From Dromaius novaehollandiae (lineage: Eukaryota; Chordata; Aves; Casuariiformes; Dromaiidae), in NCBI RefSeq assembly GCF_036370855.1, contig NC_088113.1, forward strand, positions 19,860,501-19,924,500: 64,000 nt of DNA, given 5' to 3'. Numbering within the stretch: position 1 is the stretch's first letter; every line of letters starts with the position of its first letter. A model generated the notes under the pieces. It did no database searches. It was given only the letters and a program-made list of their open reading frames with translations, and was not told the origin of the DNA. A program made the position numbers and the translations under genes. Of the stretch, positions 9,301 to 64,000 are shown one piece after another.

Positions 9301-9364
9301 GTCATGCCACCGCCGGGGCCCTGCGTGGTGCAACGCTGGGCTCGGGGCAGCTTTGCTCAGTGGG

Positions 9365-9895
9365 GCAGAGCGTCGCATCCCGGGCTGCAGCCAGGGCAGA
9401 GCGTTGCATCCCGGGATGTGGCCAGGGCAGAGTGTTGCATCCCAGGCTGCAGCCGGGGCAGAGTGTTGCATCCCGGGATGTGGCCAGGGCAGAGTGTTGC
9501 ATCCCGGGCTGCAGCCAGGGCAGAGCGTCGCATCCCAGGCTGCAGCCAGGGCAGAGCGTTGCATCCCGGGATGTGGCCAGGGCAGAGTGTTGCATCCCAG
9601 GCTGCAGCCGGGGCAGAGTGTTGCATCCCGGGATGTGGCCAGGGCAGAGTGTTGCATCCCGGGCTGCAGCCAGGGCAGAGCGTCGCATCCCAGGCTGCGG
9701 CCGGAGCAGAGCGTTGCATCCAGGGATGTGGCCAGGGCAGAGCGTCGCATCCCAGGCTGCAGCCGGGGCAGAGTGTTGCATCCCGGGATGTGGCCAGGGC
9801 AGAGCGTCGCATCCCGGGATGTGGCCGGGGCAGAGCGTCGCATCCCGGGCTGCAGTTAGGGCAGAGCGTCGCATCCCGGGCTGCAGCGTGGGGCT
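9365..9895. repeat. 31-bp minisatellite (GCATCCCGGGCTGCAGCCAG unit)
   Basis: About 17 copies of a 31-base unit. Two variants of the middle, GGGCTGCAGCC and GGGATGTGGCC, alternate irregularly, followed by AGGGCAGAGYGTYGCATCCC. As 31 is not a multiple of 3, each reading frame cycles through the same 31-residue translation, and no stop occurs in any of the six frames. This explains several false ORFs of 170-250 codons. It lies just upstream of the first RGS19-homologous exon. Confidence 0.95.
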
Positions 9896-17937: not shown

Positions 17938-36977
<19,040 letters not shown>

Positions 36978-44979: not shown

Positions 44980-45720
44980 GTGCCTTTCCAGCTCCCGGCT
45001 CCTGGCTCCCAGCTCCTGCTCCCATTTCCCAGCTCCTGGCTCCCAGCTCCTGCTCCCATTTCCCAGCTCCTGCTCCCATTTCCCAGCTCCTGGCTCCCAG
45101 CTCCCAGCTCCCAGCTCCTGGCTCCCAGCTCCTGGCTCCCAGCTCCTGCTCCCATTTCCCAGCTCCTGCTCCCATTTCCCAGCTCCTGGCTCCCAGCTCC
45201 CAGCTCCCAGCTCCTGGCTCCCAGCTCCTGCTCCCATTTCCCAGCTCCCAGCTCCTGGCTCCCAGCTCCTGCTCCCATTTCCCAGCTCCTGCTCCCATTT
45301 CCCAGCTCCTGGCTCCCAGCTCCCAGCTCCTGGCTCCCAGCTCCTGGCTCCCAGCTCCTGCTCCCATTTCCCAGCTCCTGGCTCCCAGCTCCCAGCTCCC
45401 AGCTCCTGGCTCCCAGCTCCTGCTCCCATTTCCCAGCTCCCAGCTCCTGGCTCCCAGCTCCTGCTCCCATTTCCCAGCTCCCAGCTCCTGGCTCCCAGCT
45501 CCTGCTCCCATTTCCCAGCTCCTGCTCCCATTTCCCAGCTCCTGGCTCCCAGCTCCCAGCTCCTGGCTCCCAGCTCCTGGCTCCCAGCTCCTGCTCCCAT
45601 TTCCCAGCTCCCAGCTCCTGGCTCCCAGCTCCCGGCTCCCGACTACCAGCTCCCGGCTCCTGGATCCCAATTCCCTACTCCCATCTCCCTATTCCCATCT
45701 CCCGGCTCCCAGCAGCTGAG
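44980..45720. repeat. CAGCTCCTGGCTCCC minisatellite array
   Basis: About 740 bases made of a few short modules: CAGCTCCTGGCTCC (14 bases), CAGCTCCTGCTCCCATTTCC (20 bases) and CAGCTCC (7 bases). They are combined in varying order into near-identical higher-order blocks. No stop occurs in any of the six frames over about 650 bases, giving six overlapping ORFs of 260-375 codons. The 3' end degrades into GGCTCCCGACTACC-like and CCCATCTCCC steps. Confidence 0.95.
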
Positions 45721-48719: not shown

Positions 48720-48834
48720 ATGAATATATCTGAGTCAAACTACTGCCGAGAGGAGATACCGCAACCCCGGGGCGACTGTTCATGGGTCACCGCCGCGGCG
48801 CCGGCCGCTGAGCCCGGGCTGGCCTTCGCGCGCC

Positions 48835-48868
<34 letters not shown>

Positions 48869-51283
48869 GTCCCCCGCCAGCCGCACGCCCAGCCCCGAGC
48901 CCGGCTTCGCCTTCGGCGCCGCGGCCCCCGGCGCGGCCCCCAGCCGCACGCCCAGCCCCGAGCCGGGCTATGGATACAGCCCTCCGGCGGGCCGCGCCGA
49001 GGGCAAGGCCGGCGAGGACTCCCGCATCCGCCGGCCCATGAACGCCTTCATGGTCTGGGCGAAGGATGAGCGCAAGCGGCTGGCGCAGCAGAACCCCGAC
49101 CTGCACAACGCCGTGCTCAGCAAGATGCTGGGTGAGCGGGGCCGCGGTGCCGGGAGGCTGCGGGAGCCGGGACGCGAGGGGAGAGAGGGCTGCGGGAGTC
49201 GGGATGTAAAGATATGGGACTGAGGGAGTCAGGATGCAAGGGTAAAGAGGGCTGCGGGAGCCGGGATGCAAAGGATATGGGACTGCGGGAGCTGGGATGT
49301 AAGGGTACGGGGCTGTGGGAGCCGGGATTCAAGGGTAGAGAGGGCTATGGGAGCCGGGACACAAAGATTTGGGGCTGCGGGAGCCGGGATACAAGGGCAG
49401 AGACGGCTGCGGGAGCCGGGATGCAAGGATATAGGGCTGCGGGAGCCGGGATGCAAAGGTATAGGGCTGCGGGAGCCGGTATGCAAGGGTACAGGGCTGC
49501 GGGAGCTGAGAGGCAAAGATATGGGACCACAGGAGCCGGGATGCAACGGTACAGGGCTGCGGGAGTCAGGATGCAACGGTACAGGGCTGCGGGAGCCCGG
49601 ACACAAGGGTGGAGAGGGCTGTGGGATGCGGGCTGCAAGGACCTGGAGCTGCGGGACGCAGGGCTGTAAGGGCACGGGGCTGCGGGATGCGGGGCTGCGG
49701 GATGCAGGCTGGAGCTGCAAGGATGCGGCACTGCAGATGCGAGGGTGCAGGGATGTGGGCTGCAGGCAGCCAGGATACGGGGCTGCGGGATGCAAGGCAG
49801 CGGGATGTGGGCTGCAAGGATATGGGGCTGCAGGATGCAGGACTGTGGGATGCGGGAATACAGGTTTGTGGGATGCAGGGATACGGGGTGTGGGGAGCTG
49901 GGGCTGCGGGAGGTGGGGTTCAGGGCTGCAGGGACACAGGGCTGCAGGGGCAGGATATACAGGGACACAAGGCTGCAGAGCGTGGGATACGGGGCTGCGG
50001 GCTCCAGGACACGGGATACGGGGCTGCAGGATGCAGGATGTGGGAATACGGGAAGCGGGACACGGGCCGACAGGGCTGCAGGATGCAGGGACATGGGAAG
50101 CAGGATATGGGCAGGCAGGGCTGCAGGATGGGGGTTGCAGGGCGGGATACAGGGCGGCGGGGTGCGGGGATGAGGGATTCAGGATACGGGGCTGCAGGAT
50201 GCGGCGTTTGGGAATAGGGGATCTGGGATGCGGGATGCAGGGAAGCGGCACTCCGGGTGCGGGGCTGTGCCGAGGGAGCAGCTGCCCGGGACCCCTGCCC
50301 TCACCCAGGACCCAGGTTAAGCCCGGAGATGGCCCCGGGAGCCCTCCCGCACCCGAAGCGCCCCATCCGCGGCCGCCCCGCCGCCGCCGGGCAGCCGAGC
50401 CGGTTTCACAGAGCCCCGCTTTCCCCTTGCAGGCCAGTCGTGGAAGGCGCTGAGCGCCAGCGACAAGCGTCCCTTCGTGGAAGAGGCAGAGCGGCTGCGC
50501 ATCCAGCATCTCCAGGATCACCCCAACTACAAGTACCGCCCAAGGAGAAAGAAGCAAGCCAAGAAAATCAAGAGGATGGAACCCAATATCCTCCTCCATA
50601 ACCTTTCCCAGCCTTGCAGTGACAACTTCAGCATGAGTCACCACGGCGGCAGCCAGCCGGGCCACCCCCAGCCTCCCCCACTTAACCACTTCAGAGAACT
50701 CCACTCCATGGGGTCGGATATTGAAAACTATGGCTTGCCAACTCCCGAGATGTCTCCCTTGGATGTCTTGGAACAGACCGAGCCGGCGTTTTTCCCTCCG
50801 CACATGCAGGACGACTGCAACATGATGCCCTTTCGCGGCTACCACCACCACCCGCAGCTGGAGTTTGCCCCGGAGAAGTGCATGGGGCGGGACGTGGCGG
50901 GGCCCTACGCGCAGACCCCCTCGCACCTGGCCGAGGCCATGAGGACTCCCCACCCCTCCAGCCTCTACTACAACCAGATGTGCTCGGGAGCTCAGGGCGG
51001 GCTCTCGGCCCACCTGGGCCAGCTCTCGCCCCCGCCCGAGGCCCACCCCCTGGAGAGCGTGGACCACTTGAACCAAACCGAGCTCTGGACAGACGTCGAC
51101 CGCAACGAGTTCGACCAGTACTTGAACATGAGCAGGACTCGGCCTGACGCCTCGGGACTCCCTTACCATGTCTCCCTGTCCAAAGTGACTCCTAGGAGCA
51201 TCTCCTGCGAGGAGAGCAGCTTGATATCCGCCCTGTCCGACGCCAGCAGCGCGGTTTACTATAGCCCGTGCATCACAGGTTAG
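48720..51283 (+). CDS. SOX18: transcription factor SOX-18 (SoxF)
   Basis: HMG-box transcription factor controlling endothelial, lymphatic and feather/hair development. Exons 48720-49131 and 50433-51283 join in phase 1 (CTG G|GC) to give 420 aa. The HMG box spans about 103-174, beginning [17 protein letters not shown], and is split by the single intron inside KMLG|QSW as in other SoxF genes. A basic nuclear-localisation stretch ([10 protein letters not shown]) follows. The N-terminus [12 protein letters not shown] differs from the mammalian MQRSPPGY start. Residues 40-50 are an 11-Ala tract and 54-62 and 75-83 a duplicated SRTPSPEPG. The C-terminal SoxF motif EFDQYLN (363-369), implicated in beta-catenin binding, and the conserved tail [17 protein letters not shown] are present. 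The start codon was chosen because translation begins directly after a plausible short 5' UTR and no earlier ATG fits. Confidence 0.95.
49140..50260. repeat. 30-bp minisatellite filling the SOX18 intron
   Basis: From just after the donor almost to the acceptor region, the 1301-base intron consists of tandem copies of a 30-base unit, GGGCTGCGGGAGCCGGGATG plus CAAGGGTAYA. Copies are regular to about 49610, then decay into shorter GGGCTGCGGGATGCAGG-like units. Roughly 35 units are represented. The G-rich strand is the sense strand, so the pre-mRNA intron would be G-quadruplex prone. Long ORFs inside encode only the repeat. Confidence 0.93.
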
Positions 51284-60400: not shown

Positions 60401-62519
60401 CAGCGGGAGAAGAAAAGGAAAACTGGGCTCGCGGCGGTTTAATGAGCTCGGCGTTACGAGCTGGGGAAAAGCTGTGGAACACACAAGTGGCAACGCAGGA
60501 TTAATCTTCCCTTTAGTCTTGGGAATTATGTTTTCATTAATCCTAATTTTTCCAGATGTTTCACTCCTTACACCACGCTCTTCAAAGCCTCTGCGGCTGC
60601 AAATTCTAATGAAGCCATGAGAACATTTTAAAGAGCAGGATTCAAAGCTTAAATTGCTTCCTTTTTTTTTTTTTTCCTTTTTTTTATTTTCTGTGTTTTC
60701 GGGGGTGGGGACACGCACGCCGGGCTGTTGGGGAGCGCATGTGTGTGCGGTCCGGGGCCTCCCCACGCCGCCTCGCGCAACGTGCGGCCAAGACGCAGGC
60801 GGCCGCAGAGCCGCGCGACGCGCCGTGACGTCCGGGCGGACCCGTCCCGCGGACTGCAAAACCTATATGTTCTTATGCAGATGTTTAATGCAGCTGGATG
60901 CTGCTGCTGGCGCCCGCGGGAACCGCTCCGGCGCCTCGGGTACCGCCGGAGAAGGGTCCCCGGGAGGGATGCTCCAGCCGGCAAAGCCCAAGGCGCAGCG
61001 GCTCCCCGAGGCTCGGCGGGTCCCCAAAGCGCATCGGGTCCCCACAGCCCGTCGGCGGGTCCCCAGGCGGGTGCCGGCAGCCCGGTGACGCAGCCGGTCG
61101 GACGGGCCCGCCGGAGCAATCCCGCCGCTCGGGATTCACATCCATGTACTTATATGGCCTTCAAGCCGCGGCGGGAGCATGACCAACGTCTGGAAATCCA
61201 GCTCCGGCTAGATCCCTCCATTAGCAATTTCTCGTACATGACTCGGGAGACCGGAGGGATTTGTTCAGTTCGCAGGAGTGTTTTCCCAGTGCCACGGACC
61301 GGCTGCTGCCAGCATTGGCTCGGATCTGCCGGATCCTGTCGCCTTACGCGACCCGCCGCGGCTCCGGCCTCGCTCCGTGCGCAGCCCGCAGCGGGGAGCC
61401 GGCTCCCGCGCCGCCCCGGCCCCGGCGGCTCCGGCCTCCCGGGGAAACTTCGACCTTTTTTATGGGTGCCATAAAGGTTATTTTTTAATCGGCTCCCAGC
61501 GAGGTTTCCCCACCGCTGGGGTCGGTGGCCTGGGGAGCACCGCGGCATCACCGCTCTTTTGCCCCATTTGGTTTTTTTTGGCAGAAGTGAGGCTTTTTGC
61601 AGGGAGACGCCGGGATGGGGGGACGGATGGCCACCCCTCACCGCGTGGCGGATCCGGATCTGTCCCCGGAGATGGCTCCGGCTCCACGTTTCTTAGGGCA
61701 AAATATTCCCACCGGTGCCATCGCCTGCCGCTGGCAACCCCGGTCTTGCAGCAGGGCCGCGTCGGCCGCCGGGGCCGGGAAAGGCACCCGGAGCATCGCC
61801 CCGCGGACGCCCCTCTTCCTCGGCGGTGCCCCATTTCCAGCGCTTGGCGCTGCGAGCGGCCGGGGAGGGTTTGGCAAAGGCGCCGCTCGCGGATTCTGCA
61901 ACAATAGTTTCCCATTTTGCGCCCTCGCCTGCCTCATCCTCCAGCAGCGATGACGAAGGGCGGCGCGGAGCCAGCGCCCGCGGCAGGGGTGTTGAGATCA
62001 GGGACAGCACAAAAATATCTCCTCTCTGGAACAAATATTTACCAACCCTTCTGCCTTTTGTTCTTGTGGTTCTCATATTTTTTTCTCCAGACATTCGCTG
62101 GCAAAATGTCACATTAAGCAGCAACCCAGAAACTTCGGGGTAGCTGCTTGGCTGCTCCGCGCGTTGTTTTTCTCGCGCGCTAATTGGTAATGAATTTCCA
62201 GCCGTTCGCGCCGATGCAAACCTAGGCGAAAACCATCTTTGCAGCCCGGTTTCGGCGCTTCCCGGGCCTCCACGAAGGCCTCTGCTGCTCCGCTCGCTGC
62301 CCTCCGTGGCGGAGTTTCCCTCCATCTCCTTAAAACCTTAAAACCCTCGCGTCGGCTTTTGATGGCTGCCGAGCGAGAGCGCGCGGGTAATTTATGAGTG
62401 TTGAATCTACGGGGGGGGTCCGGTCTTCTGAACGTTGACTTATACCTGCGGTTAAAAATTAACCACGGCAATAAAACCGCAAATGCGAGAGGGCAGCAGA
62501 ATCCGCCGACCCCGGCGCC
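57446..62519. other. GC-rich noncoding DNA
   Basis: No gene is recognisable over about 5 kb. A long T-run lies at 57756-57781 and a shorter one near 60661-60686. A+T-richer islands at 57620-57720, 60480-60660, 62000-62130 and 62330-62470 contrast with the CpG-rich rest and are candidate conserved noncoding elements; the 60480-60660 island contains GGATTAATCTTCC and TTCATTAATCC, homeodomain-type motifs. All long ORFs overlap in several frames and lack family content. Confidence 0.45.
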
Positions 62520-63035
62520 AACCGGCTCCGCAGCATCTTCCCCCTCTTCCAGGACGTGCGGGTGATGCCGGGGGTGGCCCTGGGGCCCCTGACAGCCTCC
62601 ATGCCCGGCTACGGGCTCGGCGCGCTCGCCTGCAGCTTCCTGCCGCTCAGCTTCTCCACGCAGCGGGCCCTGGTCCTGCAGGGCTTGCTCTGCCTCTTCC
62701 ACCACGGCAAGGTCCCCCGACCGGGCCATCGTCACCTGGCTGAAGGTCCCGGACGGGGGAGGAACCATCACCATCCACGTCTTCGCTTGCTGTTTCGGCC
62801 TCGGCATGTCCAAGGCTCTGTTCCGGCCAGAAGAGCAGCTGGGACGTCCCAAGGAAAGCCCGACCTGCCCGTCGGACCTCCGTCGGTTCAGGTTCCTGGC
62901 ACCCTTCCTGGCGAGGCGCCTGGGGCTCCTGGACCGGCGCGGCACCCGCAGCCTCCGCGGGCTGCCCGGCATCGGGGACGGCGGCGATGCCCGCGGCCGA
63001 GGGTGGCCCCTCCTCACCGCGGCGAGCATCCCTCC
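62520..63035 (+). pseudogene. Rh-family ammonium transporter remnant
   Basis: Three blocks align in order with Rh glycoproteins (RHAG/RHBG/RHCG). Block 1 (62535-62713): FPLFQDVRVM, matching PLFQDVHVM, then GYGLGALACSFL and a QRALVLQG resembling IQWALLMQG. Block 2 (62716-62860) is shifted by one base: LKVPDGGGTITIHVFACCFG resembles KVKDAGGSMTIHTFGAYFG, followed by LGMSKALFRP resembling LTVSRVLYRP, and SDL. Block 3 (62880-63035), in the same frame: FRFLAPFLARRLGLLDRRGT resembles YKYLTPFLESRLKIQDTCGV, then RSLRGLPGI resembling HNLHGLPGV. Relative to family members about 45 residues are missing between blocks 1 and 2 and about 110 between 2 and 3, and the N-terminus and last membrane segments are absent. 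No introns separate regions that lie in different exons in Rh genes. Key pore and fold residues are lost, so it cannot be a normal transporter. Comparison is from memory. Confidence 0.7.
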
Positions 63036-64000
63036 CCGGGAGAAACGCCGGCCCGGCTCCCGCGTACTGCTCCCCGGGCGCCGCCGGGCGCCGGTGCCCT
63101 CGGCACCTCCGTGCACCGGGATGCATCCTGCCCAAGACGCCGGCGAGTCGGAGCAGCCCCCGCCGGGAGCCCCGGGATGCAGCTCGCCTCGTGCTGCCGC
63201 CGCAGAGGCGACGTCGGAGATGCTCGCGGCGAGCGCCGAGAGGACCAAACCTCGGTGGGGCGGGGGGCGGGGGGCAGCCCTCGGGCTTTGCAAGCGCTGC
63301 CCCGCGGGAGCACCCCAGCCGCGTCCGAGCATCGCCCGGCCCCTCGCCCCCAGGACGGGCCCCCCCAGCCCCCCCGCCCTCGCCGTGGGGTGGCAGCGCC
63401 GTCCCGGGCACCCCAGCGCCGTGGCACACGCAATCTGCTCCGCAGATGCTGCCAAAACCAGCCGTGGGCCCATAAAAGCACACGGAGGGGGGTCCCCCCC
63501 CCCGGGACCCCAGCGTTGTTGCTCGGCGCCGTTTGCAGCACGGTCGTCGCTGGGGGCTAATTGCGCTGCCCGGCACCGGCACCGCGGGGACCGGCGTGAC
63601 CCGCTCCGGCCCGGGGGTCCCGGCAGCACCACGCTGCTCCGAAGCCGCCGCTCTCCAAAGGACGGAGCAAAATATTAAGCAGAGCCCCCAGCGTTTATCG
63701 CGCCATAAATCTGCACTTTCAACAGCTTCACAGCGCTGCGGGGAGGGGGGCGAGGACGAAACGCCCCAGCTCGCAGCGGGACGCGGCTTCGTGGACTCCA
63801 TCCCGCGCGGGGCGAGAGCCGGCGCCCACCGGGCCCCCGGGAACAGCGAGGCCAGCGCCGGGGGGGGGAGCCGGGCTGTTTTCAAGGCGGTCGGACGCAG
63901 CTGGGAAGTCCATTGCCCGGCGGGGGGGCCCGCACCTGCAGGCACCCGCGGCACCGCGCCGATGCGCCCTGCAACGCACAGCCGCGGCGGCCGGTGGCAC
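63036..64000. other. noncoding right edge
   Basis: Very GC-rich DNA without recognisable genes. I found no continuation of the Rh-like homology. An A+T-richer patch at 63665-63730 (AAAATATTAAGC, CGCCATAAATC) may be a short conserved element. Minus-strand ORFs of 430-500 codons that cross this region and the Rh-like segment are antisense, stop-poor artefacts. Confidence 0.45.

Follow-up and report, generated by a model that had tools for sequence, protein, structure and literature searches.

Remnant of an Rh-family gene downstream of SOX18 in Dromaius novaehollandiae, possibly a fossil of Rhp2

A 64,000-nucleotide stretch of Dromaius novaehollandiae DNA (assembly GCF_036370855.1, contig NC_088113.1, positions 19,860,501 to 19,924,500; hereafter the window) carries, near its end, the remnant of a gene of the Rh family (SLC42). 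Descent from this family is confirmed at the sequence level by significant colinear similarity to Rh proteins. The reading preferred here, to which a probability of about one half is given, is that of a dead Rh-family gene that was already intronless in life and was most likely Rhp2.

Layout and identity of the locus

The features of the locus and its surroundings, numbered from the first nucleotide of the window, are the following:

12.9–14.0 kb, plus strand: RGS domain pieces
about 36.9 kb, minus strand: TFIIS-like amino end (TFIIS proteins make up six of seven PDB rows at E up to 10, with a best E of only 0.0075)
48801–51283 (approximate, from open reading frames), plus strand: SOX18-type gene of two exons, encoding an HMG box and a Sox17/18 central domain
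62538–62714, plus strand: Rh block 1, RhCG 60–118; 59 gapless codons, two transmembrane helices, mostly exon 2
62715–62739, plus strand: break between blocks 1 and 2; frame 0 to 1, about 54 residues (RhCG 119–172) lost
62740–62880, plus strand: Rh block 2, RhCG 173–219; last part of exon 3, then the bulk of exon 4
62881–62886, plus strand: in-frame join of blocks 2 and 3; about 101 residues (RhCG 220–320) absent
62887–62973, plus strand: Rh block 3, RhCG 321–349; last part of exon 6 and on into exon 7

The preliminary description of this DNA had placed three colinear Rh blocks downstream of SOX18, with a frameshift near 62714 and two large internal gaps. These elements are all borne out. The remnant lies about 11 kb downstream of the SOX18-type gene on the plus strand, the four motifs quoted in that description occur in the translations, and the PDB, tblastn and profile matches agree with the blocks. 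The frame (start modulo 3) passes from 0 to 1 between 62714 and 62740, with five consecutive C at the break, and the missing residues number about 54 and 101. The end of the feature had been set at 63035, which is too far downstream, as Rh similarity stops at 62973–62982. Block 1 has a weak upstream extension, tblastn placing RhCG residue 43 at 62487, and its coding signal starts at about 62505. In total, 344 of the 479 RhCG residues are unmatched by the remnant. By tblastn and an ungapped profile scan, RhCG 43–59 and 350–352 have weak matches at the locus and none above noise was found there for RhCG 1–42, 119–172, 220–320 and 353–479. Among the best matches of the missing-piece scan of 62000–64000 (at most 20 per strand, scores of at least 24), other segments reached no more than 35 on the plus strand and 27.8 on the minus strand, which is the range of shuffled sequence. 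An exact 10-base repeat, ACCACGGCAA, is found at 62462–62471, upstream of block 1, and at 62701–62710, just before the frame change; it may be due to chance.

The RGS, TFIIS-like and SOX18-type neighbours fit the order RGS19-TCEA2-SOX18 of the human genes. A look for the octamer repeat of CR1 3' ends, which would mark a bird-like genome, gave 0 matches. A 31-base minisatellite at 9363–9887, whose higher-order unit measures 155 bases (94% matches), lies upstream of the RGS exons, and tandem repeats of 40-, 44- and 168-base units (36494–36809) adjoin the minus-strand TFIIS-like amino end. Upstream of SOX18, a minisatellite of 7- and 41-base units with about 17 copies of the latter (44988–45713) sits inside several long open frames on both strands. 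Minisatellites of 30-, 62- and 45-base units (49156–49856) occupy more than half of the SOX18 intron.

The block translations match only Rh proteins in the PDB. Block 1 is matched by RhCG (3hd6, chain residues 64–115; E 9.5e-5), RhAG and RhCE, the three matches at E up to 10 all being Rh. The translation of blocks 2 and 3 is matched by RhCG (E 5.1e-9), RhAG and three bacterial Rh50 entries, again all Rh (five of five at E up to 10). When four human Rh proteins were used as tblastn queries against the 64 kb, the nine rows obtained at E up to 1 all fell within 62487–62982, with E from 1.6e-6 to 9e-3; RhBG missed block 3 and RhCE matched block 1 only. The 104 decoy queries (4 reversed, 100 shuffled) reached a best E of 0.013, and 1 of their 71 rows overlapped 62480–63000. 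A four-protein Rh profile recognized the open reading frame with block 1 (E 3.3e-9) and that with blocks 2 and 3 (E 6.2e-6), while block 3 alone gave E 3.2. In the ungapped profile scan of 62000–64000, blocks 1, 2 and 3 score 85, 68.2 and 48.2, respectively, and the highest of 60 shuffles 45.5. Since block 3 barely exceeds this maximum, its assignment rests on order and spacing. Pfam-A gave no match at E up to 1 for any of four translations (both block translations and two long open reading frames). The Rh identity proposed earlier thus stands by the PDB, tblastn and profile searches but not by Pfam-A, so that the refutation test which the preliminary description had set itself, a search without significant Rh hit, came out negative in part.

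Profile searches were extended to other contigs. None of 40 viral contigs passed. One of 546 prokaryotic contig stretches did and was rejected: at E up to 0.01 it is matched by none of the four human Rh proteins and not by a second profile, and the open reading frame behind it presumably codes for a bacterial phosphoribosyltransferase.

State of the gene and model of its decay

The blocks retain the signature of coding sequence. Their 135 codons include no stop, and their pooled GC3 and GC2 are 0.91 and 0.50 in flanks of 67% GC (block 1: 0.983 and 0.458; block 2: 0.787 and 0.511). GC3 exceeds GC2 by 0.41; among 4692 overlapping nearby segments this difference never goes beyond 0.12 and has a standard deviation of 0.048. 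When the entire window was scanned for GC3 excess in open, GC-rich frames of 150 bases, nothing emerged but the exons of RGS and of SOX18 (both with minus-strand echoes) and 62502–62726, which is block 1; blocks 2 and 3 fall below its threshold and show a weaker excess in their own frame.

Of the positions invariant among RhCG, RhAG and RhBG, 36 of 66 (0.55) are kept, compared with 23 of 66 (0.35) in human RhCE and 41 of 63 in bacterial Rh50; because the remnant retains more than human RhCE, this measure alone fails to show death. GC was raised at 17 of the 30 changed positions, lowered at 4 and left as it was at 9. Block 2 keeps D177 and H185, while in block 3 H344 is replaced by Arg and DTCG reads DRRG; H185 and H344 are the twin pore histidines of RhCG. 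W102R, T337R and C338R likewise speak against function. Over RhCG 66–107, which covers both helices of block 1, there are four prolines versus none in each of the four human proteins. The hydrophobic peak is lowered in block 1 (1.26 versus 1.62–1.88 in the human proteins), but block 2, at 1.59, shows no such reduction against human values of 0.88–1.49. The full set of 11–12 transmembrane helices in one frame is absent from the locus. A functional Rh channel is rejected on account of the frame change, missing helices, H344R substitution and helix prolines. The decay perceived in the preliminary description is upheld by these features and by the internal losses, and the locus appears to be a real fossil gene that does not look like a working one.

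The course of decay was simulated from RhCG with a GC3 of 0.95, on the premise that invariant positions changed only once the gene had died. Neutral drift towards an equilibrium GC of 0.8–0.9 gives, at 0.15–0.2 substitutions per site, a retention of 0.53–0.67, GC2 of 0.46–0.56 and GC3 of 0.90–0.94, with 35–47% of runs free of stop codons, to be compared with the observed 0.55, 0.50, 0.91 and no stop. An equilibrium GC equal to that of the flanks (0.67) fits worse, with GC3 of 0.84 and 12% of runs stop-free at matching retention. GC-biased neutral decay of about 0.15–0.2 substitutions per site can, in this model, account for the present state. Small insertions or deletions are fewer than neutral decay predicts under assumed indel rates (one versus about 3–8), and this shortfall suggests that the gene was probably still coding when some of the divergence accumulated. 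For bird regions rich in GC, PMC8449477 describes rapid GC-driven change of proteins.

Introns, parentage and alternative origins

The intervals between the Rh blocks, 25 and 6 bases, are too short to hold an intron. Exon junctions were placed from exon lengths that we take to be those of RHCE and projected onto the other paralogues. On this map the blocks span junctions 1/2, 3/4 and 6/7, and the match to the preceding exon continues for 2, 2 and 5 residues upstream of them. Random flanks do equally well in fractions of 0.007, 0.024 and 0.002, respectively (Fisher combined 4e-5, in a test devised post hoc with the blocks already known). The short upstream matches and the post hoc nature of the test leave the intronless state of the remnant likely, short of proof; in this form the claim of an intronless locus is maintained. 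All three blocks start no more than 5 residues from the assumed starts of exons 2, 4 and 7. Neither a retrocopy nor a single-exon gene deleted at random explains this proximity, which could be due to chance.

The parentage of the remnant was approached by comparison with human sequences only. Identity amounts to 53/135 positions with RhCG, 49/135 with RhBG, 47/134 with RhAG and 34/135 with RhCE, while RhCG, RhAG and RhBG have mutual identities of 0.58–0.69 over the same positions. These values point to a glycoprotein-type Rh protein that has no clear parent and, as judged from the alignments, is not a near copy of any human paralogue. The ammonium channels RhCG and RhBG share with it the block order and sequence, including Asp177 and His185, but their identity to it is only 39% and 36% over 135 positions, and the remnant is mostly unmatched, broken in frame and devoid of His344. 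The human RhCG and RhBG genes contain introns. Rh30/RhCE aligns with block 1 through its residues 52–106, GKV end included; blocks 2 and 3 are unmatched by it and its identity is the lowest of the four.

Nakada et al. reportedly found, in 2010, that the coding region of shark Rhp2 lies in a single exon. If this holds, Rhp2 and the remnant have an intronless coding region in common, a feature that a retrocopy shares. Rhp2 is nevertheless favoured because a single coding exon makes retroposition unnecessary and because retrocopies are few in chicken. Shark Rhp2 transports methylammonium, which the remnant should be unable to do. A distinct vertebrate Rhp2 clade is recognized in extracts of PMC3844404 and PMC5568229.

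The remnant could instead have arisen by retroposition of a multi-exon Rh gene such as RHCG or RHBG, the processed copy landing downstream of SOX18 and decaying there; this origin is unlikely but still deserves serious weight. Like processed pseudogenes, the remnant is intronless, truncated at its 5' and 3' ends and broken in frame, and a bootstrap over positions (5000 draws) prefers RhCG in 56% of draws and RhBG in 40% (RhAG, 4%). It differs from them in having no close parent among the four human paralogues (25–39% identity to each) and neither tail nor target-site repeats: from 62974 to the window end at 64000 there is no A-run of at least 5, AATAAA or ATTAAA, and none of the nine direct-repeat families in 62200–63400 resembles a flanking target-site repeat. 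An old retrocopy could have lost both. Such copies are also scarce in chicken, the figures given in an extract of PMC3136929 being 78 there versus 4738 in human.

It is rather improbable that a multi-exon Rh gene collapsed here, at least two genomic deletions having taken out entire introns and exons so that only pieces of exons 2, 4 and 7 were left. Such a collapse would fit the closeness of each block to an exon start and the AG found directly before exon 4. That AG is the only one at the three junctions, and this origin is at odds with the resemblance of the residues upstream of all three exon starts to the previous exon and with the 25- and 6-base gaps, which contain no intron.

The damage could instead lie in the assembly, segments having been dropped and one base miscalled in a living GC-rich Rh gene. 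This is held to be improbable. The codon signature and stop-free blocks are in its favour, as are the false losses and frameshifts documented for GC-rich bird genes in an extract of PMC9516821 and the fast protein change in PMC8449477 mentioned above. Against it, the window contains no N, and, as a correction to the C-run-rich composition noted in the preliminary description, there is no C- or G-run of at least 6 in 62419–63261, and thus none within the blocks. Dropped segments also leave the four helix prolines and loss of H344 unexplained; the prolines of chicken GLUT4, according to an extract of PMC8449477, rose only outside the membrane.

The codon signature and stop-free blocks leave room for yet another reading, in which a small Rh-derived membrane peptide without transport role would be transcribed and translated beside SOX18, the frame change being a base-call error and both losses real and in-frame; this is considered very improbable. 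Chance similarity in GC-rich DNA, with which the silence of Pfam and the near-shuffle level of block 3 by itself would agree, is rejected in view of the three colinear matches, the Rh-only PDB matches, the weaker decoys and a codon signature that sits in the same frames as the blocks.

Putative history and meaning of the fossil

In the preferred reading of a dead Rhp2 gene, the living gene would already have been intronless, most likely with the single coding exon attributed to Rhp2. It would have died by frameshift and internal deletion. Drift under GC-biased substitution would afterwards have held down the number of stop codons and preserved the high GC of third positions, and may have put Pro, Arg, Gly and Ala into the helices. 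Today the remnant is most likely without function.

A search of one open-licence library for literature on Rh glycoproteins, Rhp2 and SOX18 synteny gave no account of the locus among the matches listed, and the terms RHBG, RHCG, RHAG, RHCE, ammoni and SOX18 are absent from the main text of PMC4290089. An extract of a study of avian dot chromosomes states that no pseudogenes were met where genes were lost (PMC12954441). A broken gene copy is, on its own, ordinary. In an avian genome, the locus would also be the still visible fossil of a gene lost in GC-rich surroundings. If it is Rhp2, a lost ammonia-channel gene would be pinned to a named spot downstream of SOX18. Its loss could then be dated species by species, which would bear on the change in ammonia handling in land vertebrates.
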